Shown here: positions 6,763 through 38,060 of the stretch, piece after piece | Layout of the letters: each line of letters starts with the position of its first letter | Position numbering within the stretch: the first letter of the stretch is position 1 | NCBI GenBank assembly: GCA_963920765.1 | Contig: OY987244.1 | Coordinates: 32,495,678 to 32,559,677 of the forward strand | Length of the DNA: 64,000 nt | Direction of reading: 5' to 3' | Origin: Ulota crispa | Lineage: Eukaryota; Streptophyta; Bryopsida; Orthotrichales; Orthotrichaceae | Notes under the pieces: generated by a model | The model's input: the letters and a program-made list of their open reading frames with translations, nothing else | What the model was told of the DNA's origin: nothing | Database searches by the model: none | Translations under genes and position numbers: made by a program

Positions 6763-6821
6763 TTTAGGAGATCTTCTAAATCCAGTCATACCAATACCTC
6801 AATAGTTTAGGTCACTCAGAG

Positions 6822-7482
6822 TCAGAGTAGCCAAAGTTGCTTTGCGCTTCCTCGCATCAAGCTAGGTTGTCTTTTGCCAACCTCACCTGTGCATGCGGGA
6901 TGGAAATATTTACCGCTCCGGATCTTGGCTTCCACGAGGTAAGAATAGAGTCCGTATGTACCCAGCATGGCGGCTGAGTGGAGTCCGCCTTCCACTTCAA
7001 AGTCGTCTTGTCCATGGCATCCCACTCCACGGTATGAATCTTGGACCGCACGATCCTTCATGACTGGCCTGAAATATTGTACAAGAATTTTCTTGAAATG
7101 CTTGCTTAATTCAGCCAGCTGCGGGTTCGACAGTGCCATAACCACCCAAATTGATTTTGGCACCTTGTTATCATCTCCAAGTCAGAGAAGGAAGATGTAA
7201 CTCTCCATGTAGTCTCTTTGCAACTCAAAATGACGTTTGAGGCTGGTTGTGGCGTGCACCAATGTAATGTTTGTTGATAGCAAATTCTTCCTTTATTGTA
7301 CCGTCCATGTTGAACATGTCAGTTGCCCTCCCACGAACTCGACTTGTTGGCCAGAACCCTTCAACGAGGACTGAGTTGTGTTCTAGGGTCGGCAACTCCA
7401 AAGCCACCTTCATAGCCTTCCAATAGGCAATCAGGCTTCCATAGTTTACCATATAGTTACCCGAAGTGTCCTCCCTTGCCAA
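6822..7482 (-). pseudogene. DUF7869-like protein, C-terminal part (broken)
   Basis: Downstream of the core domain, the reading continues as ESLAREDTSGNYMVNYG (about 7440-7490) in a frame shifted from the core, then stops near 7225. Further peptide remnants follow between 7163 and 6822, in two frames. I infer that this is the C-terminal region of the same protein from its strand, order and reading continuity. No separate domain was recognised. Frame changes and stops show that it is not functional as it stands. Confidence 0.4.
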
Positions 7483-7484
7483 CG

Positions 7485-8699
7485 ATTCTTAGTACCCAAT
7501 AAATCCTGACAAGCCTCTCAAAATGTCATCCTTCTGCTTCATCTCTATGGGCTGTGCTGCTTCTGGTGTCCCTCGCGGCCAAAGTTGTTTACGGTTTGCA
7601 CCAACCTTCCATATAGTTTAATACTTGCGCTAGGCTTCCAACTATCTTCTGTGCAACGAATTTTAAACTGCATAACTGGTTCGCCCTCTTGCAAAAAAAA
7701 CTTGAATTGTTGCCCTTTTGTGTGCCCAATTAACTCATTACCATTACATGCCAAGAATAGCGCAACAAATTTCTTAAAATCTGGAACTTCCTCAATCAAA
7801 TGGGGGATGACCTTTTCAGAATTTGGATCAAGCGTCATGTAAGACTCCATCAGAGCTGGTAGTGTAGGGTAATCCTTCTCTCTAAGCTTCATGTTCCACC
7901 TCCCAAAAGAAGCATCTATGTCCTCATGAATGTGGCCAACCAAAAGAAACAATACTATAACTTCTTCAAAAATGTAGTTTGCTACAAGCAATGACCAGAA
8001 GGAGAACACAAATCGGCTCTTATTGTCTTTTCAGCAGTTGTCAAATTGCACGTGAAGCATTGGAGGCAAAGGAATGGCCAGCGGAGGTTCGGACAACGTC
8101 GCCAGTCCTTCTGTACAATTCTCCTTGCCATGAAGAAGAGCTCTTGCTAGAGGTGTCCGCCTAGAGTTCCGAAAGAGCATTCCAATTATTGACTGCTTCG
8201 GGAGTTCCAGATCCCGAAAGAGTTTGGCTACAGAACCAACGATATGGTTAGAATCGGCCTTGTACAAGTCAAGGGCGTAGTGCGCAAAATTCACATTACC
8301 ATGACCATGGGCAATCATGCATGTCATGAAGATGGGCAGTTTATAGAGACCGTCTGTGCTTTTATTCTTTGCAGCAAAACTTGGTGATGCAATTTTTGAG
8401 TGATCCATCTTGTCAAGAATAATTGTCACGACCAAGTCAGGCTTCACAATAGAAAGATACTTTGACGCGCAATATGCTTGACAATGTGCCTCTTAGTCGG
8501 CGAGATGATGCTGCAAGCTAGCAACGTGGAAATTGTATGCACTAGATCCAACCGAGTGAACATCGCACAGTTGTTTTTGGTTGTAACAGGTTTCGCACCT
8601 GGCAAACAAGTCCCCCCATCGCTTTACCAAGCACTCGCTAAACTCGTGCCGCCGCAAGTAACTAATAGTTGAAGACGGGACTACCGGTAGTCCCAGCAA
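7485..8699 (-). pseudogene. DUF7869-domain transposon-like protein, core (pseudogene)
   Basis: A single minus-strand frame runs from about 8699 to 7545, interrupted by stops at 8493-8495 and 8031-8033. The second stop reads TGA where TGG would give QFDNCWKDNK. Recognisable pieces in order are a cysteine pair (RCETCYN), DLVVTIILDKMDHSK, LHVQFDNC and FLLVGHIHEDIDASFG. The VGHTHEDID and QxDN motifs are typical of DUF7869 proteins, found in multicopy, transposon-like genes of plants and other eukaryotes; their biochemical role is not established to my knowledge. Near 7560 the frame shifts to continue as AAQPIEMKQKDDILRGLSG. Similarity was judged from memory of the family, not by a search. Confidence 0.72.
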
Positions 8700-8807
8700 A
8701 ATGTTGACCTATAGCAAAGACTTGGAATTGTTAAGGTGTTGAGCCATAAAAGCAATGCCACTAGATCAACAAAACTAGCTGATCACTTAAATTAATTGCT
8801 GACCACA

Positions 8808-10700
8808 TTTAGGTGACCACCTAAATTTGAGCAAAGAGGGGTAGGTTTAGAGACTTGACAAGGCCACAACATTGTTACCAATCACAGCCATGAATTCAAT
8901 GCTTTATAGTCAATAGAATTAGATGATCACCTAAAACTTTGGATGACGTGCCCTACATTACACATTTAGGTGACGACCTACATTTGAGAAATTACAACAT
9001 CAAGCATATAACAAGGACTTGGAATAGTTAAGGATCAGAGACACCAAAACATACCCACTCTGGCTATAGAATTAGATGATCACATAAAACATCCACATAC
9101 TTGCCATAATTCATTCAGTAACATTGCTATTAAAGGTGATCAACTAGATTTTATACATTCCATGCTTGTATATAAGAGAGGAACACAGAGTTCATTAAGG
9201 GTCAGAGCAACAAAAGCAATGCTATTTATTCACTAGAATTTGGTGCTCACGTGAATCTCTGCTGACCACATATATATGACCACCTAAATTTGAGCACAAA
9301 TAAGTTTAGACACTAGACAAGGCCACAACATCATTAACGATCACAACCACAAATTCATTGGTATCCACTCAATAGAATTAGATGATCACCTAAAACTACG
9401 GATGAGTTGCCCTACATTGCACATTTAGGTGACCACCTAATTTTGAGCGGTGAAGGGTTTAGATACTTGTCAAGGCCATGAGATTGTTAACAATCAAAAC
9501 CATTATTCCAATGCTATTTAGCCAATGGAATTAAAAGATGACCTAAAACTCTAGATGAGTTGCCCTACATTGCACATGAAGGTGACCACCTAAATTTGAG
9601 AAATTACGACATCAAGCATATAACAAGGACTTGGAATAGTAAAGAATCACAACCATCAAAACAGTCCAACTCCGGCAATAGATTTAGATGATCACCTAAA
9701 TCATCCGCATACTTGCCATAATTCATTGAGTAACATTGCCATTGACGATGATCAACTAGATATGATACGTTCCATGCTTGTATTCAAGAGAAGAACACAA
9801 AAATCATTAAGGGTCAGAGCAACGAAAGCAGTGCTATTTATTCACCAGAATTAGGTGCTCACTTAAATTTTTGCTGGCCAAATATAGGTCACCACCTAAG
9901 TTTGAGCACAGAGATGTTTAGACACTCGACAAGGCTACAACATCGTTAACAATCACAACCACAAATTCATTGCTATCCATTCAATAGAATTAGATGATCA
10001 CCTAAAACCCTGGATGAGTTGCCTTACATTGCACATTTAGCTGTTCACCTAATTTTGAGCGCAGAGGGATTTAGATACCCGAAAAGGCCACGAGATCATT
10101 AACAATCAAAGCCATTAATCCAATGCTATTCTGTCAATAGAATTAGATGATCACCTAAAACTCTGGATGAGTTGCGCAACATTGCTCATGAAGGTGACCA
10201 CCTAAATTTAAGCAATTACAACATCAAGCATATAACAAGGATCTGGAATAGTTAAGGATCACAGTCACCAAAACAGTCCTACTTTGGCCAATGATTTAGA
10301 TGATCACCTAAAACATTTGCATACATGCCATAATTTAGTTAGTAACATTGCCTCTAAAGGTGATCAACTAGATTTCAAATGTGTGGCGTGCTTGTATGTA
10401 AAAGAAGAACACAAACTTCACAAGGGTCAGAGAACGGAAAGCACTGCAAATCATTCACCAAAATTAGGTGCTCACTTGAATCTCCCCTGACCACATTTTG
10501 GTGACCACTTCAATTTGAGCACAGAGGTGTTCAAACATTGGACGATGCCACAAGATTGTTAACACTCACGGCCATGAATTTAATGCTGTTTAGCCCATGG
10601 ATTTAGATCATCACCTAAAACTCTAGTTGAGGTTCCCTGTATTTTGAAGATACATTGCACATCAAGGTGACCACCTCAATTTGAACAATTATGAAATTAC
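8808..10700. repeat. ~612-bp tandem repeats carrying TTTAGGTGATCACCTAAA palindromes
   Basis: The phrase 'aattacaacatcaagcatat' and close variants recur near 8990, 9602 and 10214, a spacing of about 612 bp; a shorter, diverged unit follows near 10690. Each unit carries about four palindromic sites of two types: TTAGATGATCACCTAAAA and TTTAGGTGACCACCTAAA. Examples are 8808-8825, 8919-8936, 8965-8982, 9378-9393 and 9424-9441. Decayed sites continue to about 11755. The array lies between the N-terminal block and the core of the DUF7869-like gene, where an intron would be. Confidence 0.85.
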
Positions 10701-11856
10701 TCATAGAACAAGGACTTGGGTTAGTTAACTATCCGCGCCGAGGGAAGTGCGACCTTGACAATAGACTTACATGATCACCTAATACTGCGGCTCTCTTGAC
10801 ACAATTCTCTTGAATTCATTGCGCACGACGTTGACCACGTACATTCCCGCAACTAGATGTTGAAATCCGGAACAATGACACGGACATGTTAAGGGTCGGA
10901 GCCATAACAATAGTGCTATTCCATTAGCACAATTAGTTGATCACCAAGTACTCTAGCCAAACTGCCCAATTTCATAATGAATCGTTGTATACAAACGTGA
11001 CCACAAAAATTAAAGCAGTTAAGTGATCATCTAAACCATTATCCAGTCTCTTTGATGAAGTCCGTATTTTGATTGGTCACTGTACATAACTATTCCAGCT
11101 ATCATCAACATGCAAGGATTGCGCTTAGAGTTTGAATTGCAAATTGCCATTCCGCACAACTCCACGATATTCATCAGCAGATATAAGTATAGATGGAGGG
11201 CTCATCCACCTCAGTGGATCTAGGTGATCATCTAAATCTCTACAATGATCTAAATCTCCTGCTCCTCTTGCTACACTTAGTCCTTACCCGCTTCATGAAC
11301 AAATCCTGTGAGATTTAACCAACTCAGGGAGTGCATGAGACAGAACCTAGCGTTCAAGTAATGATGAAGGCCGTATCCGATGATAGATTAAGTTGGGGAT
11401 CACCTCCCACAACAGGTCGCTTGCCCTAATTGACTAGAACTCCATACACATAGACATGACCTTCGACATTTGAGCTATTACGTGATCACCTAAAAATGTA
11501 TCCGGCCGTATAGTTCAGCTACATGACTTTAGTGGTTGGAATAAAAACCAAATGAGGAGCATACTCCTTATTTCAAAGTTCATGTTATCAATTGGAAGAC
11601 GTAATTGCCAATACTGTTGACTTCATTGTGTACGTTGGCACATGTAACTATAGATGGAGTGAGGGCCAGCTAACACAAAGGATTGACGTGATCATCTAAA
11701 TTTGTTCACTACGCTACAATACATGCCTATAATGAAATTTAGGAGATCTTCTAAATTCAAAGTAGTGAGTTGAAAATTTACAATCTCGACTCTTTCAATA
11801 TTTTCCTATAACCAAATTCACTTGGCTTGCCTCAAGTGCCGTAGAAGGGGCAAGAC
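10701..11856. repeat. Decayed palindrome-bearing sequence next to the 612-bp array
   Basis: Single palindrome-like sites remain, for instance TTTAGGAGATCTTCTAAA at 11738-11755, GTGATCACCTAAAAATG near 11472 and AGGTGATCATCTAAA near 11221. The 612-bp periodicity is lost. No coding sequence is visible. Confidence 0.6.
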
Positions 11857-12800
11857 TCACCTTGTTGATCTTGTCGCAAATATCTTTCCACTTCAAACTC
11901 GTCGGCATTACTCGCTCGGCACCCTCTCCCCGGATGGTAATGTCCTATACCTGTAAGGCATAATATCAGCAGATGCGCTTATAATAAACCCCAATGATGC
12001 GGCGGCTTGCCTTGTCCCCGCCCTTCTCTTGCTTGTACCTTTGTTTCCATGTTGAGTTGATTGAACACTTAGGCTAGCATTTGTCTGCGCTATAAAATTC
12101 TGTCTTGGACACATTCATGATGATCATCCATGCTTTTAAGCATACTCGGCCGTTGCTCATTACCACGTACTTCTTTTTCAAATCACTATGCACTTGTCTA
12201 TGCACGTCCAGCTTCATGTGAGTTTGTATGCGATGATCTGCAGACCACATCTCATGCCGCATGCTTTTCACCACATCCTGATGTACTTTCTCCGTGCACT
12301 TATCATTACAACATTTTGTTGCAACGACACGCCATAGCGCGTTGTTGCTAACTTGTTCCTCCAACTTTGATAAGCGTTGCTTGCGATGACAACGACAATT
12401 GGTTCTGCATTGCTTGCAAGGCATGTGGTCAATGCCTTCACTGCGCCTTTGAAGGTTCTCTTGGAATGCTATTTCAATATCATGGAGTGAGATGCCCCTA
12501 TGTATGGCAAATTTGCTTGGCCATCTCCTCAATGTCCTAGTCCACTCGCTAGGGACTACATCTGAATTAATATTTTGCATTATCAAGATTCCCACATGGT
12601 CTGGCCCTAGTGGTTCTTAGTCTACGCAATTAGTAGGCCGGCTATTTTGAATTACTCCGCTCGCATCCAATGTGCCTTCAGCGTTCACGAGATGAACATC
12701 AAGATTTATCCACTTGTCCCTATGATAAGAAATGGGAGGTAGGGGGTCAAGTTCTTCATGATTTGCTTCTGCACTGTCATCCTCTAAAGATCCGCTCCCA
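11857..12800 (-). pseudogene. DUF7869-like protein, N-terminal block (pseudogene)
   Basis: The minus strand reads first an acidic segment (AEANHEELDPLPPISYHRDK), a stop at 12617-12619, then a long open frame to about 12074. The latter contains a cysteine cluster (CKQCRTNCRCHRKQ), CCNDKCTEKV and GRVCLKAWMIIMNVSKTEFY. Near 12080 the frame shifts to RAGTRQAAASLGFIISASAD, and after another shift to MPTSLKWKDICDKINK near 11860. This order (cysteine-rich head, CRKAW..SKTRFY-like motif, then the core) matches what I recall of DUF7869 transposon-like proteins. A possible donor, AAG/GTGAGT, near 11858 faces the repeat array. At least one stop and two frame changes make it inactive. Confidence 0.65.
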
Positions 12801-12839
12801 AAGGATCTTGCTCCAATCTGCTAATATTGCAATTAGGTT

Positions 12840-13486
12840 TTTAGTACACAAATCGTCGTTACAATGTAGTAACTACATTGTCTGGAAGCACACCATGTAC
12901 AAACCTGCTCTAACAAATGCTCTTCCAATTGCGGGTGTGCTGCCTCTCCACGCAAGGATGGGTCTGTATTGCGCAAACACCCATGTCATAATGGAGCTTG
13001 CATTCAACACTTCAATGATTTATAGGCCATTCCGTATCTACATTGCATGACTATTCCAATCCAAATGAGCGCGTCCTCCCACACACCGTTAAGTATGGCC
13101 GAGAATGGGATGGCTGCTTCCTGAATTTTGTCCAAAAATGTGATTTGAAATTGCAGTGGGTCATGTATTAACAATAAACACATCAACCTCAGGGGGTGAA
13201 TTCAACAATATAAGTGCCGTGCACTTAAGTCCATAGAGAATACCTCCTCCACGTCGATGTCAAAGTGATCTCCCATGCTGTGAAGTTTGTCCTGCAGATT
13301 ATATTCTAGCACTGTTGGTATATAAGTAGTTCATAATAATCATATGAACATATGCTTTATTGTGCAATGTCACGGATGTCAATACTTGTTTGCTTCTACC
13401 CCATCAACCCGGTCTTTCATACGAATATTCATTGTCGCAGTTAATGCTTCAAAGTCATTAGTTAGAGACTACACTGCCACTCATCA
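12840..13486. other. Upstream flank of the DUF7869-like gene
   Basis: No confident gene. A minus-strand peptide at 13004-13186 is helical in appearance and could be an upstream exon remnant, but nothing identifies it. Confidence 0.3.
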
Positions 13487-14112
13487 TTTAGGTGACCACC
13501 TATTTCTCTCTGTGTTGAATATCTACACTTTGACCTTGTGTACTAAACCTCGCTTAGTCCTAAGTATCTAGACTGATGCAAATGGCTTTTCTCTACAATC
13601 TTACGAACTGTGTCTTCCCTTCAACCATTGGACAATGCACGTTCTACATTACCAATCTCCACATGTTCCTAAAGCTTGGAATAAGAAATCAATCTCACAG
13701 TTAGAACTCTCTTGGTGTTTTCAAGAGCAAACGGTTTTAGTAAATTGTCAATTCATTATATGATAAGTAGGAACAGCCGTTCAATGTATCCCCGTCAACA
13801 TACTACCTTCAGGGTGATAGCTTACATTTGCTACATGGGAACATCCATGCTGAAGACCTCCCTCAATGAGGAACTTGACTCAAATTCAGGTGATCTCCTA
13901 AATCTATGCTTTCCATCGTTCAATTCACAAGCATATCCTGAAAACACTATAGAGAACCCGTTCTATGCGTAAGGTGGCTATTAATAACATCCAAATGTTA
14001 TGGCCAGCGTCTCAATCTATGGTTTCAGGTGATCACCTAAATCAACAACCAAACAATATTTACAGCGGGCATATACTGATCGCGTTGCCCAGAATTTAGG
14101 TGATCCCCTAAA
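13487..14112. repeat. Palindrome sites upstream of the DUF7869-like gene
   Basis: Sites are TTTAGGTGACCACCTATT (13487-13504), CAGGTGATCTCCTAAAT (about 13888), TTTCAGGTGATCACCTAAAT (14023-14042) and TTTAGGTGATCCCCTAAA (14095-14112). They lie 0.7-1.3 kb upstream of the recognisable coding remnant and are spaced unevenly. Confidence 0.7.
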
Positions 14113-15476
14113 ATCCATTCTGTGCACACTGTCCTTTTTATCACATTGTCATGTCATAGGGAACAGCGCACGCTTTCCATTAATCTTGACATAGTCCCAA
14201 TTGCTAAACGATGATAATTTGGGTCACAATAGTAGCTGTGCACTTTATTTTGGGGGGTCTCAATCCATAGTGGCACAGAACATATGAAATCCTAGACAGG
14301 TGCATGCCCGCAATCACAACCTTTTATTACTGGTGTTCATATGTCCCTTTGTTGGCAACACTCAAACAAAAAAAAAAAACACTAGGGTATGCACACGATT
14401 CACAGTCGCTTCACAATCCAGATTACCACTTAACAGTTATGGATGAATCCTTCAAATGGAAGCCTTTGCGCCATCAAGCATCCCTAAACCCTAAACCTAT
14501 GTTCACACAACCGACGCGGCAGCACCCCAATTCCATTCCCGCAAATCCCCATCAGTGCAAATGACCACGTCTTTCATCAGTGCAGTTGCCTCAACCCTAA
14601 ACTCCACATACTTGCCCTTCACACAAAAAGTCCTGCTCATGCATTCACATGAAACTTTTTCTATGCAAAAATTGTCTTGGATACATCCCAGGTTCCGGGC
14701 TCTTGCACAGCCTCTACTTCCTACCGGTACTGAATCAGATTCCCAGCAAACCAATGTATGCATTTCCAATACTCTACTCCAAAATCACAGACATAGCACT
14801 CAGGGCCCCCAAAAAATACCCTAAACTAGCACTGCCCGTCACCCCTGCCTCAATCCCATAACTTTCATCTATTGCTACTGCAAGTTCAGTCCCTCCATTA
14901 TAACAAGTACCTCACGCGGCTCATAAAAGTGACCACAATCCCCTCTGGTCTTCCTCAAAAATTGCAAACACTCATGACTTCTAGAACTTGCAGCAGCACT
15001 TGCACTTGCAAAGACAAGGAGCGCAACAACCTTCCACTCAGAGGCACCTACTGCGTGTACCACCACAACATACCTGCACAATCCTAGAGGAGCATACCAT
15101 TTGCAAACTAAAACTGTCGCGACAATGCAGGCAAGAACTTCGACTCAAAGTCCTCAAAGCTTTCGCTTGAACTGCACTCTTGCCTCTGCTTTTGACTGGT
15201 TAGGTTGTAACTATGGCACGTTGGAGCCATTCTCAGAGGTGGCGAGGTAGCGTGGATTCCGTTGCAGGCTGTTATATCTGTGGCTACTAACATTTGACGT
15301 AGCCCTTTTAAACTGGTGCCACATGGGGAGCTTCAATGTTTGTATTAAACAACAAATGTATGTGTGGAGTTCATTTCCCTAACAATGACGCTTGTAGGTC
15401 CTGCTGGCAGTTGGAACATGCATGCAATGTTTTAACTTATGCAAAACTACTCCCAAATACAAGTTCCTCTCTTTCT
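14113..15476. other. Moderately GC-rich stretch, no confident gene
   Basis: Overlapping short ORFs occur on both strands at 14503-15293. A minus-strand start near 15230 gives a 40-residue peptide beginning MAPTCHSYNLTSQKQ and containing a serine/acidic patch. It could be a first exon of the island 1 gene, but no splice evidence ties it there. Confidence 0.25.
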
Positions 15477-15480
15477 TTAA

Positions 15481-16122
15481 TCCCTAAATGCCCGAACCCT
15501 ATCTGAGCTTCTTGGACTTTCCTTGAAACGAAAAAATCAATCAACCTTTTTGTAAATCCCATCAAGTTTTTTTCAATTGTAACCATACAAAATTAAACTA
15601 TACATGTTATAGATTACATGGAAAACGAAAACTCAACAATATCATTTATAGTTTGTAAGATTATAACGTTTGAACTTGAGGGTGTTAAAACTGCAAAAGT
15701 AACTTAAAGTCTTCTAATCCTCATTCCACATATCAAATCTAGAAATTTGGTCACCATAAAAATATGAGGTTTAAGGTCATTACATGTCTACTCTAATCAA
15801 TTTTTGGTTTTAAAAATCTAGTCCTACATTTTTTTTTATAGATTTTTAATGTGGATTTTTCCCCAAACTCTAGTGTATTTGAGGCTCACTTTCAAGATCT
15901 TCCAACACTAGAAAACTCAAGATTGCAATGGACACCTTTGTACAAAATCTTGAGTAGAAAAACCATCAACTTTCATATTCAAAATCAAATTTTTGCTGTC
16001 GAAAGTAGACTTCAAAGCAAACTCACATTAAAAAAATAATGCTAAAAATAATAATTTTTAAGGTTTTATTCATCTTCAAAGTTTTGTAGGGACCCAAATC
16101 TTGTCGCTTGAGCATTTAGTGG
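15481..16122. mobile_element. TTAA-flanked element, subfamily A2
   Basis: The left end TCCCTAAATGCCCGAACC follows TTAA (15477-15480). The right end GAGCATTTAGTGG precedes TTAA (16123-16126). The interior shares blocks, in opposite orientation, with the element at 48475-49119 (for example the text around 'tgaggctcactttcaagatc'). 642 bp, non-coding. Confidence 0.75.
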
Positions 16123-16317
16123 TTAATTGACTGAATTTAATGCTAACAAGGTACAACTATAAAGGTTCACACTATAAACCTCAAAAAATAAATACCTCAT
16201 GAAGTGCTAAATTATAATCGTAATATAGAACACATCTAAGGATTGCTAGTAAGAAGCAATAGGCCTTTCTTGAATAAGAGAACAAGGTGTGCACTTCTCT
16301 TCCTTAAATTGTATTAA

Positions 16318-17209
16318 CCCCAAAAGGCCCATTGTCCCTTTGGAGGGAAAAAAGGGATTTTGTGTATGTAACTACGGCTAAACTAATTTGCCTGATTTTT
16401 TGAAACTTTTACTGAAGGTTTTGATTCAAAGCTCTACGTGGGAATGTAATTTTTCCTTCATTCCAACAAATATTGAAGAAGATACGCACAAAAATTTGGA
16501 AAATGCTGCTCCCCGAGCAACATACAACTTTTCTAATACTTTATTTGTTGTCAATTAAAAATTTGAAATAGGTTTTGTAGACTTATATAGATGTGCGAAG
16601 CTTTAAATCATTCAATTTTGATAGACAAATGAAAGTAACAAAAAAAAAGTTGCGTGAAGTTCTAAATTCCCTACTCTCCAATAATCTTTGAAGTCCTTTA
16701 TTTTACTCAATTTTCATTGTTTTGGAAAAAAAACAAAACATAGGGATGTAGTTTGATTGTGATAGCATTAAAACCGTTGGGATTTGCTTTTCTCATTTTA
16801 ATAATTAAATTCTCAACAATGAAATGTTTTCTCTCATTCTCTACTTCTTTTTTCTTCCTAATTTATCTCATGTGTTGTGTAGTTCCAATTGATTTGAAAT
16901 TTCTCCCACACTTACCTAACTTGGTCTTCTACATGGGAAAAAAAACCTCAATTTTGCGTACTGCACATTGTTTGATATAAGAGAACTCAACAATTTATGA
17001 CATTTAGGGGCAGCTTGAAAAAACAATTCTTCACTTCTCTTGCAAATATCTCACCCATTTTCATTTGGAATAAGCTCCTTCTCTTTTGAAGTTCCTCATA
17101 CTGTCTACAGCACAATCTTCTGGTTCAAAAAAAAAAACCATTCCTTCCACCTCTCCAAAAAGTGACAATTTCCATTGTATATTTTAAAAAGGACGTAGTC
17201 CTTAAGGGG
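16318..17209. mobile_element. TTAA-flanked element, family A
   Basis: Starts CCCCAAAAGGCCCATTGTCC after TTAA (16314-16317) and ends GTAGTCCTTAAGGGG before TTAA (17210-17213). It shares its first ~70 bp and an internal 'cttggtcttctacatgg' block with the copies at 35480, 49124 and 62326. No coding capacity. Confidence 0.8.
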
Positions 17210-17853
17210 TTAAATATAGTGGATTACTACTACAATACCCTTAATTACTAATGGGGTTGCCTTGTGTGATCATGAAATTCAATTTCATTGGTCACTTGTT
17301 TTTTTGGGACCCTAAGTTTCTCTTCACCTTTAACACTCTAATTTCTAAGTCTATGATAAAAAAAATTGGTGCGCTTCAATTCGAAACATTTACATGGGAC
17401 TGTTGAGTTACTTAAAATGAACATAAATAAAAACTAAGTATTGAAGGAATAATGTTTCAACCAAAATCTGTATTTGTCATGTATTCTTTCAAGTGGGTGA
17501 TATTGTCATGATTGACTAAAAGATGGACCAATAGAACAAATAATCCATCTAACTAAAGTATCAAATTCACTGCTCACGGGCTCCATCATTTAGCAATTTA
17601 GGCTGTCGTGGTACTAACTTCGTATACTTAATAGTACTAGAAACTGTAATGAAATACGTGGCTATTCAAGTCTTCCCGCAATAACATAGTTAAATATTTC
17701 ATTTGTTGATTTCACCCACCGGCCCTCCTCAGGCAACCATTCAACCTCTGATAGTTCAAGGCAACACTTTGGCAAAAGTTTGATTATGGTTAAAACCTTG
17801 GGTCCAATACATAACTTCCGTAGTATATGGCTATATGCCCCAATATTCATGGG

Positions 17854-17858
<5 letters not shown>

Positions 17859-17912: not shown

Positions 17913-17918
17913 GTATGT

Positions 17919-28023: not shown

Positions 28024-28027
28024 GTAA

Positions 28028-28332
28028 GGTAGGAACACCCATAAGCGTTAGTGTCCCCATAAATGTTAAATCTTGGAAAATCTATGGAAGTGAATACATG
28101 TAATGACAAGGATGTACAACATGCAAACATGGAATCGTAGTGTTGGTTATGGGTGCAATGGTAGTTTATTCTTTGAAAATTCACAACTTACTCTCAGTGT
28201 ATCCAAATAATACATTTGAAAGTGCAGACTTATTATTTTTGTGTTTCTAACAAGATCCTATAATTTGGGAGCTTTTAATTAATGCTCATCATGTATAAAA
28301 CCCTTAGTTTGACGTTTATGGGTGCTCCAACC
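28028..28332. mobile_element. TTAA-type MITE, family B copy
   Basis: Collinear with 2769-3080 over its whole length: GGTAGGAACACCCATAAGCG at the left, TTTATGGGTGCTCCAACC at the right. The flanks read GTAA and TTAC, so the TTAA sites appear mutated. 305 bp. Confidence 0.8.
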
Positions 28333-28399
28333 TTACTTTTTGCCTTCAACAAAAACTTACTAAAAGATAGTTGAAGAAGTTTCACCTACCCAAATGTCA

Positions 28400-30195
28400 C
28401 TTTTAGCCCTGAAATGGACAGTTTATGATCACACTACCTTATGGGTAGATGGAAGTTTTTATTGAACCTTGAACCTCAATGTCTATCGTAGGGCCGCCTT
28501 TTTGACGCTAACTACCTGCCACCTGGCTGTATGTGTAATCATTGCAATGGAAAAGACGTTCTTGCCGCCACTATCCTCCCTATCTTCCTGTACAAGGCTG
28601 TGTCAGTGCTGGTTCTCGTTACTCTTGCGCAGGCACAAACTTGTTTTGTTGTCATTTTGCTCTAAATCTGTTGTGCAATCTAAGCTTAGCAAGCGCTCCT
28701 TAGTTTCTCCCGTTTCCTGCCGTATCCATTTTTTGCGTTTGTATTCATGTTTGCGCCGTTCTAGTTTCTTGCATGCGCGAGGGCACTTGTAACATGCAAT
28801 GAAAACAAAGAACGTCCACTGGAACTGAGGAGGAAAACAAGGGAACTGCAAGGGAAGAGACTTGCGGCGCTCTTGTTGTCTTGAGGTGCAAGGAGAGTTG
28901 CCGATAGCAAAGAGATTGGCAAAATTAACGTCAGCCAAATTACTACACGCAAGCGGCAACTAGAAGCAACGGATCCCGTGTGCAGTGGTCCGCGAAGGCA
29001 TGAAGTTCTAGTTGCATGAAGCAAAGTCCACGCTGATCAGGTGAGTTGTCTCTCTTTGCATCACCTAATGTTGTGATACCATGTCTTTTCATAATTTGTA
29101 CTGCATTTGCACTAGTGTCACTATTGTTTGCTAGACATGAAGACCCTTGTTAAGCAATCCAAGGCTCTAAGATATGCAGGAAGTTATTTTGTTTGTTACA
29201 ACTATTACATGGACGTGGGGAATAGGAGAGAAACGCTTGCAATGATTTGCAAAGATAAGGCCTTGGCAAAGTCCTCTCCTTTGTAGGATTTGGGCAATTA
29301 CTATGCTTCAGTTTTTGAATATCGTTGACATTGGCTCCTGCGTAAAAGTGATTGAAGGAGCACATCTAAGGGTGCTTGCTTCCTGCTTTGACGATTGTTT
29401 ATGGCACATCCATTGCATAATGTGGAGCGTGCAATTGGCTGATCATGCAAAAAAACGATAATGTATATGATTGTCTTTCAAGGATTAGGGCTCACGGATT
29501 GCTTGTTTTGTGCTTGATGTGAAACATGTGATCAGGGTTTATTTGCAATAGTATTGCATGTGTTCCAAGATTAGGAAGTTGAAGCGTTTGTTGTTGTAGG
29601 GTTTTTGATTGCCGTGAATACATTTGTTGCAATATTTTGGAGTTGATGGTATACGGCAGGTGCGCATGGGTAGTAATTTTAGGGTTCACTGTAGAATTGA
29701 AGATTAGGGATTTAGAATTAGCAATTGCAGGTAGTTAGTCATTGCTGGGTATAATCTATGCATACTGTAAAGGGTTTAGGGTGCGGATTGCACATTTCAA
29801 TGCGTCATAGGATTCACATGTTGGGGCGGTAGGGAAGTTCCTCCTTTGCAGGGTGATCTCTGAAGACCATTGATATGCAAATAGTGTTAGATATTAGGAT
29901 TGAGTGTCATGATCCCGGTCTTGTGAAATTAAGTGAATGTATATGACCTCTATTTTTTGTTGAGGACTTCCAGAATTGCAAAAGTAGAATTGATGCTCTT
30001 AGCTTGATTTGCGATGACATAAGTTGTATTTGGCAGTGCAGCTGTGACGAGTGGATGACGTGAAATACCGGTGGTGTTCATCTAAGTGGTGCCGTAATTG
30101 CATTGATGATTGTTTCAGTAGAAGTTCAGGTAAAATTTCCTAAATAGAAGTATGTTTGGTAACTTCGGTTATCACTTGTTTTAGAGAACACGTAA
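28400..30195. other. 5' region of island 2, possible untranslated exon
   Basis: Composition is more balanced than in the surrounding sequence at 28.47-29.04 kb. CAG/GTGAGTTG at about 29040 looks like a splice donor, which could pair with the acceptor CTTGCAG at about 31017 just before an ATG. No coding frame is convincing. The exon idea is inference. Confidence 0.3.
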
Positions 30196-30988
30196 TTTAG
30201 ATGATTCCCTAAAATGGTCCACGAGGGCATTGTGGCAATCTGGTATGTTAAGCGGTCCCATGTAGAAATGACACTAAAAATTAGGTGACCTCCTAAATGT
30301 AGAGCGTCTGTGAAGTTTGTCATTGCCAGCTAAAAACATCAACCGAGAACCAACTACTTAGATTGAGACCAGAGCAAGTAAAATCTGTAGACTACAGTGA
30401 CAAAATGAAAAGTGTCCAAATAGTAGTTGCGTAATGAAATCTTTGAACATACTTTGTAGCAAATAAGTTTCAGACAATCACCTAAATCATGTTTGTGGGA
30501 GGAAAGTGCAATTTCGGTGTAAACTGAGCCCTTATCTGTATTTGTACTTTCAGACGACCTCCTAAATATGACGAGGTAGGACAGTAATATGACCCAATAA
30601 AACTCCAATTTTGATTGTCATGTTCAACCCTAAAATCAAAACATACTCCTTACACCCATACTACTCTAGATAAATACTGTAGCTGTGATTGATTAAATGG
30701 AAAATCTTGCAAGATGTAGTTGCCATGGCTAATTGGTAAACATGTTTAAAAAGAAGTTGGTTTTAGATGATCACCTTAATCTTGTTTTCAAGTGAGCTGC
30801 AAGAAGTCTTTGTCCGATTGAACCCCATGTGAATGCGTAAATACAATTTAGGAAACCTCCTAAATGTGATTGGTTCTGATTGTAACAACATTAAAAATTA
30901 AAAGCAACAAAAGATAAGTATGCAATGATCACGATTATTGAAGAAGGTAACATGTGATGACAATCCTGAATTTAGAAGATAGCCTAAA
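30196..30988. repeat. Seven spaced palindromes upstream of the ParB-like relic
   Basis: Copies begin at about 30196, 30279, 30468, 30548, 30761, 30847 and 30971. Examples are TTTAGATGATTCCCTAAA, TTAGGTGACCTCCTAAAT, TTTAGGAAACCTCCTAAA and TTTAGAAGATAGCCTAAA. The first six fall in pairs 80-86 bp apart. The outer half-sites TTTAG and CTAAA are kept while the centre varies, which suggests the arms are what matter. Confidence 0.75.
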
Positions 30989-31018
30989 TCCTGACTGTAG
31001 ACATCTGTGGCTTGCAGG

Positions 31019-32128
31019 ATGTCCAAGTCATACTCATTGTTCCGCACGATAGCTGCTGAATAAGATGAGAGTCCTAAAGACCTCGACCCCAAATTGTTCG
31101 CTGACATCAAACTCTCAAAATTTACTATCAATCGCGAGAATGTTGTCGAGGATCAAGGTTGGGCAGTGACTAGAAAAACCTCAAACTTGTCCACAATTTG
31201 CCTATCCGTCCGGCTTGCAGGCACTGCAGTACACAAGTCAATTAAAGGAACCTCCGTTGTTGGATGGAAGCTAGCAGATCCCTACATATAATTGATAATC
31301 CAACGCAATGACACAAGAGCAATGGATGCATTACTCGTCAATCCATCAGTATTTCGCATAAACCACAATGAAATGATTAAGGTGTGGCGGGACACAACAT
31401 TGGCGAAGTTCATAGAAGAGACGTTTGCGAAGAGGATAAACAAACTGATGCTGGTATGCAGCCAAATAGAGAAGGTTGCGGCTAAGTTAAGCGCTCATGC
31501 AGAAGAGAGTGCAGCCAAAAAACGACCAAATGCAAACACCGGCTTCGCTTCTGGCGTAGTTAATCTTTGCACCATCCCGGTCCTTGGAGTAGGTGTTAAA
31601 GGATTGCCAAGGAACGTCCCTCGGAAGTACACCTAGAAGAGGAAGCAAGGACCAAAATGGGCTAACGCAACGGCAAAGAGTTCCTCCAAAGCCGACCCCA
31701 GCATGACCAAGGAACTTGTTAACAATCACTTCTTACCTGTTGCTTGAAATCCAGATGGCACGCTAAACGCGGCCAAGTGCATTGAGCAATTTAAAAACTT
31801 TGAAGCAGAGTACAAGCCATGCTATCCCTCAGATTTCAACAAGATTGTCAAAGTCAATGTGACTAAAATAGATATTGCTCTAGCGAGCTATATTGTACAA
31901 GTGCTAGAGCCCGAGGGCGTGGCCACCATGTATAACGTGTTTGTATCGCATGCAAACCCTGTGAGGCAAATTTTATGCATGTATTTACAAGGCCTGACAA
32001 AGTGGCCAAAGAATTGGAACAACATTAAAGGTGGTCGATTCTATGTAGTGAATGGACAGCACTCGGTGGAAGCCGTCCAGAGGTTGTTATCCGAAGGCAT
32101 TTTGAAGGCGAGAGGAGGGACTAGCTAA
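31019..32128 (+). pseudogene. Island 2 protein with ParB-like GQHSV motif (pseudogene)
   Basis: One plus-strand frame starts at ATG 31019, directly after a CTTGCAG acceptor-like sequence, and runs to 32128 with at least four in-frame stops (near 31061, 31289, 31634 and 31745). Recognisable text includes DPKLFADIKLSKFTINREN, FRINHNEMIKVWRDTTLA, a basic stretch (KRKQGPKWANATAKSSSK) and GGRFYVVNGQHSVEAVQRLL. The last resembles the GQHR/GQHS core of ParB/sulfiredoxin-type folds. Similar GQHSV proteins occur as multicopy genes in some eukaryotes, as far as I recall. The whole frame keeps coding character, so it was a gene of about 370 codons. Its function is unknown. Confidence 0.5.
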
Positions 32129-34409
32129 TCAATTGGTATGCACAAATTATCTGGGATACAGAGCCATGGTGGAACCAAGCAATATCGGAAGACTACAACT
32201 AGTCTAATATGATTAATTTTTTCAAGTCAATGTCCTGATGGAGATCTCTCCATCATGTAGATACTCGTTATTTATTTACATTTGTGTTGATTTCAATAAA
32301 TCAATCTTGAGGTAAAAGGAATGGTTGTGGAGAGGACCACGGTTTGGTGACAGCACAGCAGCCATAGATTCTAATGCATTGTATTGTTTTGTCACATGCA
32401 CTGCTTAAGGAGATAAATAGTGAGTTAGCTGAGCCAATTTCCTGCCTCACTAGCTGCCAAGCCGTGAACCGCCATCACCGCTCGATGAGTCCAATGAGGT
32501 TCGAATCTAGATCGGCGGGCGACCAAAGACGACTGCTTCTCCAGTCAACCAAGTCCACAATTTGGCAATTGAAGAAAATCGTTTGACGCTATTATATGCC
32601 TGCAAAGGCACGTAGCCACTTTATGATGGTATTTATTTTGTAATTTAATCATTTTTATATGTTTATCTAGATATTTTGGAAGGCTCATACATTTTGCTTT
32701 TGTTTGAATAAAAATTACAAAGGATTTAGAAATGAATGGGAATGATGTGAAAGAAAAAGGAGTTTGGCATTTATGATGGGGTTAGGATAGAGAGGGACAT
32801 AGGCTGATGTGTCCCACTTCCCTACCATAGATAGGGTCAAAATTAAAGAAGAGAAATTCCTTAGTTGTTGGAAGTTAGTGTATGAATATTAGTAGGAAGA
32901 AGGGAGAAATTTCAAAACTTTGATGTGAGAGAATTTTTTGTATATACATGGTTTTGAATTAAAATTTGAAAGACTTGTTTCTTGTACAATTGCCTTTTCA
33001 AAATGAGTTTGCAAGTTTGATTTGGAGTTGTAATGCAAAAGTTATGAGTGTTTGAATTTTAAAGTCAAAAAGCCAAACCATGAAGAAAGGCTAAGACTTT
33101 GAAAAACCATAGCTTATGATTTGTACATCATTTTTTAACAAGATTTTAAAAAAGTGTTCATTTTAGTCTTAGCTTTCTAAAAAGTTCTTCAACTCAAGAT
33201 TTTAAGCTTAAAAGAGAAAGTTATAGAGGTGTGAAGGATTAGAAGTGGCTGCCATTTTGTTAGAAGAAGGCTGAAACTTTGGAGAATTACAACTTTTGAA
33301 CAGTATGAAATTTTTTTCTCAAAATTTTAGGAGTGATAGTTTGTTATCAAAGCTTTTTAAATTGTTTTTAATTATTTCGTTTGAAGTTTTATTGAAGAAG
33401 TTATAGTGTGTAGGAGTTGGGGATTTGGGTGCTCTCTAAAAAATTGAGACTCACACTTTGATTGACTAGAAATTTTGGACAAAGTTTTGTTTTAAAGTAA
33501 AAATTATACGAGTTATAGCCAATGGTATTATCTTTTCAAATTGATATCACATTTCTATGAGTGATGTGTAAAACAAAAGTTATAGAGGTTTATAAAGATA
33601 ATGTTTAGTTCACAAGGAGGAAGAAGAGCTTCTACTTTGAACCCGCATAACTTTTGGGCAATAGCTTAGATTGAATTGAAATTTGAAAAGATGTTTGAAA
33701 TTTAGAAGAGCTTTTCAAATTGCTATTACACTTAGCATTCAAATCTTTGAATTATTTGTGGCATTAGATAAAAGGTCGCAGCTTTTTTAGGACTTATTAT
33801 TAGTGATTATTCCATTATTTTTTATTAAAACATGAAGATTTGAAGACATGAAAACTTGAAGATCTAAAGATATGAAAACTTCAAGAGGAATGTTTTGAAT
33901 TTATTTTTTATGTATGTGAAGGATGTGGCTTTATTATTCCTAACCAATTTTGGAGGCTCATTTGTCAATTTATTTTCATTTTGTTTTGTAAATTTTGTTG
34001 CAAGCAATTTGGGTTAAATCAAATTTAATCCTATTTATTGTTATGGTGACAAAGTGAGATTGATCATCCACATGGTTGAGACTTACTCTGTTCTCACGAT
34101 CTGAAGTTTTTGTTAACAAATTGTGAATTTGATTTTAAGATCCCATCATACAGACGGCAGTTTATATCTGCTGACTCAATCTACCCGTCCCGTATCCAGT
34201 GGGTTCTTATCTCTACTTTGACTCTTCTACTTTTAGAATCAGCTAATAGATAGGCCAACGGAAAACTGAAGACTGAAGATTTGAAGAGTGAAAATCAAAA
34301 CCAACAACAATTCTTAGTCAGCGACGCACAATCGCAGCGAGACACCCTGCGTGTTCCCAAGGCGCACTCCTCTCAGCCCAACACCAAAATAGATGTGTTC
34401 ACCAAATTT
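32129..34409. other. AT-rich spacer in island 2
   Basis: No gene. The 32.7-33.8 kb part repeats loosely related phrases ('aaaagttatagaggt', 'aaaattttgg') without a fixed period. A 70-codon ORF at 32374 is unrecognised. Confidence 0.4.
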
Positions 34410-34552
34410 CCAATGACCAAAATTTAGGTGATCACCTAATTTTCAATGACTAGAATTTAGGCAATTACCTAATTTCTAATGACCCAAATTTAGGTGATCA
34501 TCTAATTTCCAATGACCGGAATTTAGGTGGTTATCTAAAATTTCCCTCGTGT
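34410..34552. repeat. 4 x ~39-bp tandem repeat, one palindrome per unit
   Basis: Each unit reads roughly CAATGACCAAAATTTAGGTG followed by ATCACCTAATTTT. The centres vary: GATC, AATT, GATC and GTTA. The sites start at about 34422, 34455, 34490 and 34532. Regular spacing near 39 bp would place successive sites at nearly four helical turns. Confidence 0.9.
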
Positions 34553-35475
34553 TTGAGGCACTTTTCAATTCTAAATAGTGTATGAATTATTGACCAACAA
34601 TAGTACTATGTCAAAAAGCCTTATATGTAAGCTGTCGTTACAATGCCAAAACTGCAGAAGTGTGCCAAGGTACTTAGCTTGCAAATGACATAGTTGTTTA
34701 TGTGGTCACGTACGTGCACGCCTCGGTCTTCCATATGAACAATGTTGCGTGTAACTTGATTGTGACAGCAGTGATTGATTTGGGATCACGGTACTCTTGA
34801 TCCGCATTGCCATAGTAGACTTGTACATAGTCAGATCGTTTAGCCGTTTTTGAATGAGTGCAAATATAATCTAATTTTGTATCTAGGGAATCTACGTTGA
34901 AAGCCATTTTCTTCATTCCATGAATCTATAAGATACAATTTTCCGCAAGCTCACTGACTTAAAGCAGTCATCCAATAGTAATACTAAGGCTTCTGTCTTG
35001 TATGAGAAGATCTCCACTTTGATTGTAGGATTAATTCTTCCTGATGCGTTATCAATGGACAATTTTGGATAGAAATTTCTACTCTCTAAATGGATGTCCA
35101 TTATTTTCAAAAAACATGGATGCTGGATTCCATTTGAAGTAGGGGAGACCCACACTTTGGTTTTCTAGGTGTGGAAGGTGTGGGTGCTCCTTCATGGCAC
35201 ATCCTATGTATCCATACTTTGAGAAGAGCACATATGCTTGTGGTTGAAGTGAAGCACAACTCTAGGTTGCATTTACGTTGTTTGTATTTGCCATTATTTT
35301 GGAATATTGTTAGGCATTGCTGGTATACGACTGGAATAATGCATGTCATGTTTGGTACTCTGTTTTTCTTGCGCGCTTGAACTATTCTATTTTGTCAATG
35401 CACAGGGTAGGAGCAAAGACATAATACAAAGGCCCCTACTCTGCTTTGTTCGGAAGCATCTAGTTGTCTTTGACC
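34553..35475. other. No recognised gene
   Basis: Minus-strand ORFs of 72-80 codons lie at 34698-35349. They overlap one another and show no motif. Confidence 0.4.
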
Positions 35476-35479
35476 TTAA

Positions 35480-36399
35480 CTCCTAAAGGACCATTGTCCC
35501 TTTGGGAGACAAATGGGATTTTGGGCAGGTACCTACGGCCTCAATTTTTGTCTTAATTTTTTGAAACTTTTTTTGAAGATAGAAAAACACATTAGCTTTT
35601 GGAGAATATAATTTTTATTCCAATTGATGCCAGGGAGCAAAAGTTATGTCCAAATAAGCACCAATTTGGGGACTAGGGGTAGCAAAAAAAATTCTTATAA
35701 AAACTTGAAAAAAAATTAATTTTCTTTTCTCATAGATTATATCTTTATCTACTTTTGAAGCTTTTATTCATTCCATTTGGACTAGTTATGAGAAAGTTAT
35801 GGACAATCTTGTTTTTTGGGCAACTCAAGCATCTTCTTGAATAAATAACTTATAAACTTCATTTTTTAATGCAGATTTAACATTTTTTCAAAAAAAAATG
35901 TTGGAGAGGGTGAATTTGCTTTTTAGAACAATCTCACTATTGGGATTATTGTGTTTCAATTCCATTGCAAGGTTATTAGCAATTTAAGTTTTTCTTCAAT
36001 CTCATACCTTCTTCTACCTAATGTTTTTTTCTAAGAATGAAAGTTAAGTATTCTTTTTTGAAATTTTTACCCAAGATTCCCAACTCAACTTCCCACCATG
36101 CAAAAATAGAATTCCAAACTCTGTGGTGCAAAAATTTTAAGTTAAAAATGTTCAAAGTTAAATAATCTAGTCAAGCAAGGTGCAAAAAAAGTTGTTTTTT
36201 ACTTTTTAAATTCAAATATCTTCCAATCTGTGTGGTCAAAGTTCTTGAGTTTTGTATGACACATTTTTATAATAGTTTAGGACAAGATCCTATGGTTAGA
36301 TATGCAAAATGCCTAATTTTCAAACTTTTTTACTCTTTACCATAGAAGTGGCAGTTTTGAGTGATTTTTGACAAAATAAAGGCCATGGTCCTTTAGGGG
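35480..36399. mobile_element. TTAA-flanked element, family A
   Basis: Starts TCCTAAAGGACCATTGTCCC after TTAA (35476-35479) and ends GGTCCTTTAGGGG before TTAA (36400-36403). Collinear with 16318, 49124 and 62326. 920 bp, non-coding. It sits inside island 2 and so postdates that island. Confidence 0.85.
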
Positions 36400-36485
36400 T
36401 TAATCATGTCTTGTGCAAAGTAGAGTATACACCGTGCAAGCTAGAGAGTGTACGCCAGGGCCTTTATGCTGAAGAGTAGGAGGAC

Positions 36486-37143
36486 ATGCAGTACACAAAA
36501 TTGATACTTATAAAAAGAGCAGCAAGAAACTCCTATAGGCTAGTAACAGCCCGCCCAAATGTGTGCATATTTCTGCAACAACTTTCAAAAGTGGCGCATG
36601 TAGGAGTGTGGACATGTATGGGCCAAGATATGGCCGCACCAATAGTGTCCTGGTTATTCAAAAGGTGTGGAGCATCTTTTGTTTTGTTGCAAGAGCATTG
36701 TACTAATTTGAAGGATAGAAACGGCAGGTATTACAATGCAAGGATAAGAACTCAAAGAGTTTTTTAAGGAGTTGCTGATGATATGGAATAGAAGATTTGA
36801 CCTATGCTTGGATCAATTTATGGCAGCGGACCATAACACAATTCTGGTTGACAATAGCCTGCTTAAAGGTTTCTTGAACCCTCGGTCGAATTGTTTGTTC
36901 CCAAACTCCTAGTACAAAAACAACGATAACAATTGCCACATTGAGAAGAGATTGGGGCAGTTGTTAGACATGTGTAGGTCTGAGCTTCTTGTGCCAAAGT
37001 TTGTGGAACTAGTATTAGAAGCAGGAGAAGAAAGAATTTTGGGGCAAAACCCGATTGATCCCTATAGTGTTGTTGTCCAAAGGACGCAGTCGTTTTTGAG
37101 GTTTGTTAGACCCTCTAGTGGTACTTTGGTTTGCTGTGGGTAG
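36486..37143 (+). pseudogene. FCP1/SCP-like HAD phosphatase remnant
   Basis: The first frame (36486-36767) reads RLVTARPNVCIFLQQLSK, HVGVWTCMGQDMAAP and LLQEHCTNLKDRNG. After a shift near 36766 it continues KELLMIWNRRFD and NTILVDNSLLKGFLNPRSNC, then a stop (FPNS*), then HIEKRLGQLLDMCRSELLVP to 37143. Order and motifs (VGVWT, QxxCT, TILVDxS...NP..FP) match the FCP1 homology domain of RNA polymerase II CTD-type phosphatases. The catalytic DxDGT motif expected at the front is absent: KLIL is followed directly by IKRAARNSY. A frameshift, a stop and that loss make it inactive. The first 320-bp repeat unit overlaps its 3' end. Confidence 0.62.
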
Positions 37144-38060
37144 AAATAGAGTGACAAAATACTCTATTTTACGGGATCTCCTAAAATTGGACCGTGTGCA
37201 TGACCTTTCCTAGTATGTTATGTACAGTTTTGTGGATTTTGCGTCAGTATAATATACAAGGCGTTTTGAGAACCTGATGTGTGATATGTAGCTATGCTAG
37301 ATTGTGTGAGTTTGGAGATTCTAACTGTCCAAAGTTCTAGTATGAATTATTTCACGTATATCCTTTGTAACCAAAGTGTCTATGGTTTCCTTTTTTATAC
37401 TTGTCTACACCGTTCTTGAAGTTTCATAGAACCTCTACTAATACTCTGGTTTGCGGTGGGCTATAGAAGGGTGACACTGTACTCAGTTTTAGAGGATCTC
37501 CTAATATTGGACTGTGCGGACGGCTTTTCCTAGTATGTTATGTACAGTTTTTTGGATTTTGAGCCAGTATGATATACAAGGCTTTTTGAATACCTGATGT
37601 TTGATATGTTGCTCTATTGGATTGTGTGAGGTCGGAGTTTCTGACTGTGGGAAAGTCTGGTCTGAATTATCTCACGTATATCTTTTGTAAGAGAAGTGTG
37701 TGTGGTTTCCTTCTTTATACTCATCTTCACCGTTCTTGATGTTTGTTAGAATGTCTAGTGATTCTTTGGTTTTTTAGTGGGCAATAATAAAGTGACAATG
37801 TCCTTTGTTTTAGGGGATCTCCAAAAATTGAATAGTGCGCACAACTTTTCCTAGTTTGTTACGTACAATTTTGTGGACTTTGAGCCAGTATGATATATAA
37901 GGCTTTTTGACTACCTGAAGTGTCCATAGTCTATAGCTCTATTACATTGTGCAAGTTCAGAGACTCTGACTGTGCAAATTTTTGGCTTGAATTATTTCAT
38001 GTATATCTTATATAATTGAAGTGCCTATGGCTTCATTTTTCTACTCGGCTACAGTGGACA
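37101..38060. repeat. 3 x 320-bp tandem repeat with palindromes
   Basis: Units start at 37101 (GTTTGTTAGACCCTCTAGTG), 37421 (GTTTCATAGAACCTCTACTA) and 37741 (GTTTGTTAGAATGTCTAGTG), a period of exactly 320 bp. Each carries one palindrome-like site: TTTACGGGATCTCCTAAA, TTTAGAGGATCTCCTAAT and TTTAGGGGATCTCCAAAA. The first unit encodes the last residues of the FCP1-like frame, so the array grew from the 3' end of that gene. Confidence 0.88.

Follow-up and report, generated by a model that had tools for sequence, protein, structure and literature searches.

We analysed a window of 64,000 nucleotides from the moss Ulota crispa (contig OY987244.1, positions 32,495,678 to 32,559,677 of the forward strand; window positions below count from its first letter), in which broken, transposon-like genes are surrounded by copies of a palindrome, TTTAGNNGATCNNCTAAA. 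With a probability of roughly 0.7, judged from sequence comparison, we propose that this palindrome is a family-specific cis-site for a dimeric DNA-binding protein encoded by the element itself, and that the two islands in which it clusters are parts of one giant transposon with three conserved genes, for a DUF7869 protein, a ParB/Srx-like protein and an FCP1-like protein. Allowing up to two mismatches, 36 sites in the window match the palindrome, compared with a mean of 0.38 and a maximum of 3 in 100 shuffles, and with 0 for the reversed pattern. This bears out the more than thirty sites counted in a preliminary description of the stretch, and the clusters that it placed at 6.7-14.1 kb and 30.2-37.9 kb were found as described. 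All sites except a lone one at 1404 (35/36) fall within 5719-39356, where 2 of the 35 are held by nested miniature inverted-repeat transposable elements (MITEs), 16 lie in a large gap of the DUF7869 gene and 7 lie just upstream of the ParB-like gene; the exact palindrome is present at 7 window sites, 2 of them in nested MITEs. The sites recur at spacings of 153, 306, 459 and 612 bp, at 320 bp and, at 30.2-30.9 kb, as pairs 80-85 bp apart, in agreement with the 612-bp, 320-bp and roughly 80-bp spacings reported earlier; a spacing of about 39 bp proved to be 33 bp. The element, with its terminal inverted repeats (TIRs) and target-site duplications (TSDs), its genes and its palindromes, is laid out in the window as follows.

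5719..39356, giant TIR DNA transposon, degenerate, 33,638 bp, with both islands inside; left and right TIR differ from the working consensus AACRCCATATTYRTTAAWTTGGGAA by 1 and 0 mismatches; gene order as in other copies
5715..5718, left TSD, CTAA
5719..5746, + strand, left TIR
6763..6780, palindrome 3' of the DUF7869 gene
7026..12712, - strand, DUF7869 gene, a candidate transposase gene broken into several pieces; 3.2-kb gap at 8706-11910; tblastn pieces 12712-12092, 12057-11911, 8705-8262, 8267-7761, 7733-7611, 7614-7219 and 7157-7026
8774..11755, array of 16 palindromes (up to 2 mismatches) in the large DUF7869 gene gap, a probable intron; part of the sites are in a 153/612-bp repeat
13487..14112, palindromes upstream of the DUF7869 gene, at 13487 (3 mismatches), 13885, 14024 and 14095
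30196..30988, seven palindromes upstream of the ParB-like gene
31247..32226, + strand, broken ParB/Srx-like gene with an NGQHSV motif, placed by tblastn with the open reading frame (ORF) of a relative at locus L036
34368..34539, 33-bp repeat with four palindromes, at 34423, 34456, 34489 and 34522
36582..37134, + strand, broken FCP1-like (HAD phosphatase-like) gene, placed by tblastn with the L040 ORF at 63% and 37% identity
37091..38040, 320-bp tandem repeat at the 3' end of the FCP1-like gene, with palindromes at 37168, 37488 and 37809
39329..39356, - strand, right TIR, which by eye resembles the site-bearing end of the family C MITEs listed further below
39357..39360, right TSD, CTAA

The comparison of copies indicates that both islands are parts of one TIR transposon, with a TIR of about AACACCATATTYRTTAAWTTGGGAA and a 4-bp TSD. 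The preliminary description had described two islands, and two independent islands were rejected here in favour of a single element with matching ends and TSD; since the gene order in the window is the same as the conserved order elsewhere, we read them as two gene clusters of one element. Two further giant copies, C5:539850-577498 and C2:7396680-7448484 (C numbers denote contigs), are about 90% identical, and their similarity starts at the first base of the inverted repeat AACACCATATT and ends within 2 bp of the partner TIR. The C2 copy spans 51.8 kb between its ends, with the TSD ATTT/ATTT and about 21.7 kb of interior outside the comparison, and the C5 copy spans 37.6 kb. A segmental duplication behind the similarity was rejected, as the homology halts at the TIRs apart from scattered repeats. 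A clean TSD is present in 2 of the 3 giant copies (window and C2), and identical 4-bp flanks were found in 19 of 37 TIR-bounded elements (3 giant and 34 short, the giant copy of clade 3 being left out), against a mean of 0.99 and a maximum of 6 in 2000 for permuted flanks, a test that treats related copies as separate and leaves shared ancestry uncorrected. Two features of a TIR DNA transposon, TIRs that bound a shared unit and a TSD of fixed length, are present, and the giant element presumably moves by cut and paste.

The same arrangement of genes recurs across the genome (275 Mb searched, exons placed by protein similarity alone). DUF7869 lies within 60 kb of 27/35 ParB-like places, the nearest copy being upstream and on the opposite strand in 27/27, and an FCP1-like gene lies within 30 kb of 15/35, downstream and on the same strand in 15/15. 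These counts consider the nearest neighbour only and are based on 79 of 150 DUF7869 rows (without weaker rows and second pieces), 35 of 37 ParB-like rows and 23 of 27 FCP1-like rows (second pieces left out). Contig C11 is dense in DUF7869, which makes chance neighbours likely there; when it is left out, DUF7869 is near 21 of 24 ParB-like places. This contig (6.3 Mb) is very dense in both DUF7869 and ParB-like copies, and is possibly a sex chromosome or another degenerating chromosome.

The three genes were each named in the preliminary description, and the evidence for them differs. The DUF7869-like gene is supported by Pfam PF25273, which matches one piece of the window gene at 1.2e-23 and the next piece at 1.3e-5, a score that narrowly misses the cut-off. 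When 3 ORFs of the window and 7 element proteins were scanned with Pfam, DUF7869 was returned and no transposase family, so that a tnp2-type transposase as in CACTA/EnSpm was not found, in a search by which a broken copy could be missed. Acidic blocks (KMD, DN and H.H.DID) are conserved in 3 aligned DUF7869 copies and could be a DDE/D triad, and we infer that DUF7869 is the transposase of the element. The copies that fit the Pfam model best and have long open frames (C2:9211222, C6:8554322, C1:1204075 and others) are at no listed ParB-like place. A GQHSV/ParB-like gene is also present, and a relative's structural model suggests a ParB fold. For the FCP1-like gene the support is partial: the relative at L046 matches the dullard-like phosphatases of TIGR02251 at 2.8e-6, far under the family cut-off, and the closer relative at L040 gave no match.

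The palindrome itself takes different forms in different lineages of the element, either 18 bp around TGATCA or 21 bp, as TTTAACTYRANTYRAGTTAAA and TTTAGGTYRANTYRACCTAAA. At individual ParB-like genes we found TTTAGTTGATCAACTAAA (L035 and L037), TTAAGGTGATCACCTTAA (L024 and L009), TGTACNTGATCANGTACA (L038; 16 matches at up to 4 mismatches versus 5 for the reversed pattern) and TTGAGNTGATCANCTCAA (L036; 14 versus 1 for the reversed pattern). The tree of 29 ParB-like copies separates these forms: one clade (support 0.935) is made up of the 12 TTTAACT copies and a second (1.000) of the 2 TTTAGGT-21 copies, and the 14 copies labelled 18-bp stand apart from both; the labels were assigned by hand, with that of L018 as '18' resting on weak sites and with few sites at L012, L013 and L032. 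Co-variation was counted in 50 of the 511 21-bp places (the first ones listed, all on C1) and compared with an expectation that assumes independence and leaves shared ancestry uncorrected: the arm pair 6/16 is complementary in 50/50 (29.8 expected) and the arm pair 5/17 in 47/50 (34.6 expected). The inner pyrimidine-purine (YR) positions of the same 50 do not co-vary (30 and 23 of 50, with 32.8 and 28.4 expected). The co-variation is not built into the search, because the pattern accepts either letter at those positions. That symmetry is kept while the sequence changes, in several repeat units and in families with different TIRs, points to a selected binding site of a dimeric element-encoded protein, as had been suggested for this window. 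Passive hitch-hiking, whereby the palindrome would be a functionless by-product of MITE-derived or tandem repeats, is compatible with those window sites that lie within tandem repeats and with the shared ancestry of MITE copies, but we consider it very improbable, given that both arms change symmetrically, that the same site stands in different repeat units and that the site type matches the ParB clade.

Genome-wide, the exact 18-mer is found at 615 places and its reversed pattern at 1, and the 21-bp TTTAACT form at 147 exact places versus 2 for its control. The preliminary description had asked whether the palindrome clusters around genes of these families, and had held that its occurrence at background frequency or mainly away from them would refute its reading. 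The exact 18-mer is far above background, and clustering was found for its TTTAACT relatives, with 29 of the 50 places listed (of 147) within 5 kb of DUF7869 or ParB-like genes, where 0.5% is expected. The 18-mer does not cluster in this way: among its first 50 listed places (C1:0-24.3 Mb), 0/50 have a DUF7869 or ParB-like match from the lists within 20 kb, the DUF7869 list for C1-C6 having been compiled by hand. Taken literally, the refuting outcome, a site mainly away from such genes, thus holds for the 18-mer in this one listed stretch.

We looked at 20 off-gene sites (the first four listed 18-mers, eight 18-mers without the longer 22-mer and eight 21-mers), a non-random sample, because all were chosen from C1 listings. 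Each of the 12 18-mers in this sample sits in a short element (L001-L004 and L048-L055) with a TTGGGAA-type TIR no more than about 70 bp away; only one end was found in L001 and L054, and L004 has one weak end. The 8 isolated 21-mers are all inside short elements too, here with the related AAAATGGGAGATT-type TIR at the ends; in L058 and L059 this TIR has partly diverged. The MITE L045:3699-3973 (275 bp, with its own TSD) likewise has a AAAATGGGAGATT-type TIR; its start had been considered as the left end of the giant copy of clade 3 and was rejected. Palindrome type and TIR type go together in the sampled MITEs, and since the sampled off-gene sites stand in short elements with the same or a related TIR type, they appear to be part of the same system. 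Gene-less MITEs of about 245-385 bp retain one site each; in the 18-mer MITEs sampled it is some 53-66 bp away from one end, and in the 21-mer MITEs it is more central. Apparently, the two MITE families are non-autonomous derivatives that share the TIR type and TSD length of the giant family, with the ends of the AAAATGGGAGATT-type giant copy not firmly defined. In the second family (L045:3802 and L056-L063) the palindrome sits inside a longer palindrome, of 51 bp at 98% in L045. Three family C MITEs are nested in the window element.

24190..24452, nested family C MITE, TSD TACC, weak site at 24382 (3 mismatches)
24922..25179, nested family C MITE, palindrome at 25108, flanks TTTG/AATT with no TSD
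26449..26709, nested family C MITE, palindrome at 26503, TSD TAGA

In the giant copies the palindromes have a different placement. In the C5 copy the DUF7869 gene has sites on its 5' and 3' sides and between its pieces, the ParB-like gene has them on its 5' side and in the interval separating its exon groups, and the FCP1-like gene is flanked by them, with no site at up to 2 mismatches in the 21 kb between the gene clusters; by the same threshold, the outermost sites of giant copies are about 1.0-1.5 kb inside the ends. The earlier likening to subterminal repeats was therefore not upheld, since the giant copies have their sites in the 5' regions and 3' ends of genes and in presumed introns. 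All three genes have sites in front of them, inside them or immediately after them, which would also suit an ordinary operator that only autoregulates these genes, for example by negative feedback. We regard this as improbable, as it does not account for the site being kept by MITEs that have no genes and belong to two TIR classes. Alternatively, the palindrome could be an accessory site needed in the transposition complex, with internal copies acting as enhancers or protein sinks, by analogy with TNPA of En/Spm, which, in the part of the source covered, binds subterminal repeats that are cis-determinants of excision and vary between CACTA families (PMC2613891). The sampled 18-mer MITEs, with their site about 53-66 bp from one end, agree with such a role, but giant copies lack a site near either end and the site is more central in 21-mer MITEs, so that we hold this alternative to be rather unlikely.

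The inner positions of the palindrome bear on a further alternative. In 79 TTTAACT sites (L016-L034, n=158) the inner dinucleotides are TG in 66, CA in 62, CG in 17 and TA in 3 cases. The excess of TG, CA and CG (145/158), with few TA, fits methylated CpG decaying to TG or CA, and the palindromes may be methylation targets. This counts in favour of an anti-silencing site, at which a VANC-like protein strips DNA methylation via clustered motifs and has no direct role in the transposition complex. VANC proteins are described, in the part of the source covered, as binding tandem, family-specific and rapidly diverging motifs in non-coding regions of VANDAL elements (PMC10398659), and the sites studied here are also tandem, non-coding and lineage-specific. 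On the other hand, the one site that gene-less MITEs of about 245-385 bp keep agrees with a cis-role in mobilisation, though anti-silencing of MITEs is possible. We consider an anti-silencing site a real, if minority, possibility.

As to the protein that would bind the palindrome, the ParB/Srx-like protein is the likeliest candidate, with about an even chance, followed by the cysteine-rich N-terminal part of the DUF7869 protein. In the AlphaFold model of the L036 ParB-like protein, the mean predicted local distance difference test score (pLDDT) is 60, and residues 161-320 reach 73-95 (in blocks of ten). When this model was compared with the PDB by Foldseek, 13 of the top 14 matches were ParB/Noc chains and 1 was a sulfiredoxin; the best E-value, 6.8e-4, belonged to the only match below 0.001. 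The protein is thus modelled as having a ParB/Srx fold, on one model of moderate quality. GxRR is the nucleotide-binding motif of the ParB CTPase clamp. NGQH[TS]V stands in its place (position by eye; G in 22/29, Q in 24/29 and H in 24/28 copies), and a ParB-type CTP clamp is therefore not indicated; NGQH[TS]V recalls the DGQHR motif of DndB-like proteins. A fusion of ParB with a methyltransferase, suspected from a C-terminal FGG motif in the next exon group (489 aa), was dropped, as it had no support from profiles or a usable model. Sequence-profile searches of the PDB with two alignments, one of them of the ParB-like protein, gave nothing useful. With one query protein each, and within reach of close relatives only, no ParB-like relatives outside this genome were confirmed in GTDB contigs, viral contigs, plasmids or PADLOC, and no DUF7869 relatives were found in viral contigs.

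We hypothesise that a dimeric protein of the element would recognise the palindrome of its own lineage. From the many sites at the 5' ends of genes and in presumed introns, this protein would activate or un-silence the element's genes, and through the single site in each MITE the same protein would license the mobilisation of MITEs. A cis-role in mobilisation is suggested because MITEs retain the site, and control of expression because sites cluster at genes; one protein may do both, and its binding probably activates rather than represses. A more specific version, which we find doubtful, is a system like ParB-parS, in which the ParB/Srx protein would load at element-specific palindromes, spread along or bridge the 34-52 kb element and keep it open and mobile. 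Protein and site would then diverge together, each lineage licensing only its own giants and MITEs.

Several observations weigh against a cis-site of the element's own protein within one giant transposon. Both giant ends have been placed in only three copies (window, C5 and C2), of which the C5 copy has the flanks ATCA/ATAC and no clean TSD; scattered repeats (688 bp at 82% and 61 bp at 93%) still match between the C5 and C2 loci beyond the TIRs, and 18 of the 37 TIR-bounded elements have no 4/4 TSD. The uncorrected shared ancestry in the flank permutation and in the co-variation counts belongs here too, and the MITE sites amount to few independent events, because MITE copies share ancestry. 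The ParB-like copy at L030 (C11:1029173-1032496) has neither palindrome form and carries repeats of GGCAAAGATAATTATC-like words instead, the palindromes of L036 are mostly weak, and several other loci have few or none near the ParB-like gene. On the protein side, the fold rests on a single model, the target-normalised TM-score among the ParB/Noc matches is at most 0.41, no profile library gave a match for the L036 ORF, to ParB or otherwise, and the canonical GxRR motif is absent from the ParB-like copies. No DNA-binding domain was located, because the 489-aa exon group (pLDDT 46) gave no usable model.

Among known systems, we place the element, as a new form, with the TIR transposons that encode a DNA-binding protein and carry the repeats recognised by it. 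Membership in CACTA, KDZ or Mutator is excluded, because TSD and TIR differ. The comparison with En/Spm or Mutator-like elements made in the preliminary description thus fails as to membership, and a functional likeness to TNPA or VANC remains the best analogy. Mutator and VANDAL elements have a TSD of 9-11 bp, and a 4-bp TSD rules them out here. VANDAL/VANC of Arabidopsis is alike in being a multi-gene DNA transposon with short family-specific motifs that are clustered in non-coding parts and diverge between families, as was also found here, whereas the Ulota motif is palindromic, is present in gene-less MITEs as well, and goes with a 4-bp TSD and a candidate binder with a predicted ParB/Srx fold. 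With En/Spm (CACTA) the element would share an element-encoded DNA-binding protein, and it shares non-autonomous derivatives that have the TIR and the motif, and a motif that varies between families; it differs in its non-CACTA TIR (AACACCATATT), its TSD of 4 rather than 3 bp, its palindromic motif, which is not subterminal in giants, and its size of 34-52 kb, and CACTA/EnSpm membership was ruled out by the TIR and the 4-bp TSD.

The bacterial ParB-parS, Noc and DndB systems offer a likeness in the modelled ParB/Srx-fold domain and in a palindromic site present in several copies on the same element. Here the setting is a eukaryotic transposon with NGQH[TS]V for GxRR, and binding of the palindrome is predicted by analogy. 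KDZ (Kyakuja-Dileera-Zisupton) and Plavaka elements are likewise multi-gene eukaryotic DNA transposons with accessory enzymes. Their TSDs, in the part of the source covered, are 7 bp for Kyakuja, 8 bp for Zisupton and 2-3 bp for Plavaka (PMC12730594), and KDZ membership was ruled out by 4 bp versus 7-8 bp. Starships are alike in giant size only; they have a tyrosine recombinase, according to the partial text covered, whereas TIRs, a short TSD and a DUF7869 gene characterise the present element.

DUF7869 was not named in the open full texts searched, a scope outside which most subscription papers fall. Searches for ParB with transposons in mosses, plants and eukaryotes, and for giant DNA transposons, found nothing similar at the level of titles and abstracts among the matches listed, and ParB is not mentioned in the covered part of a review of giant transposons (PMC6431247). 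The element links the poorly known DUF7869, a ParB/Srx protein and an FCP1-like gene in one giant DNA transposon with defined ends, and it suggests which elements are the autonomous relatives behind two MITE families. A single genome supplies many protein-palindrome pairs, each specific to a lineage, which makes it possible to test directly how the specificity of transposon proteins and their cis-motifs changes together while non-autonomous copies keep up.

Other features of the window were recorded as well. A stretch of 68 bp at the left end of the window element (5716-5783) has a further match in a short TIR element that lies within the C5 copy, and outside the giant element there are three short TIR elements.

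42992..43132, short TIR element, TSD TGTA
44750..44974, short TIR element, TSD CTTG
46075..46329, short TIR element, TSD GAGA

Window positions 18641-19099 are a run of undetermined bases, translated as X. A long array of short near-repeats with a spacing of 8-12 bp occupies 23354-23631, and a 119-bp element at 20407-20525 has a related but distinct TIR (AACCCCATATTTGTTAAATATGGAGTTGC) and the TSD GAAT.

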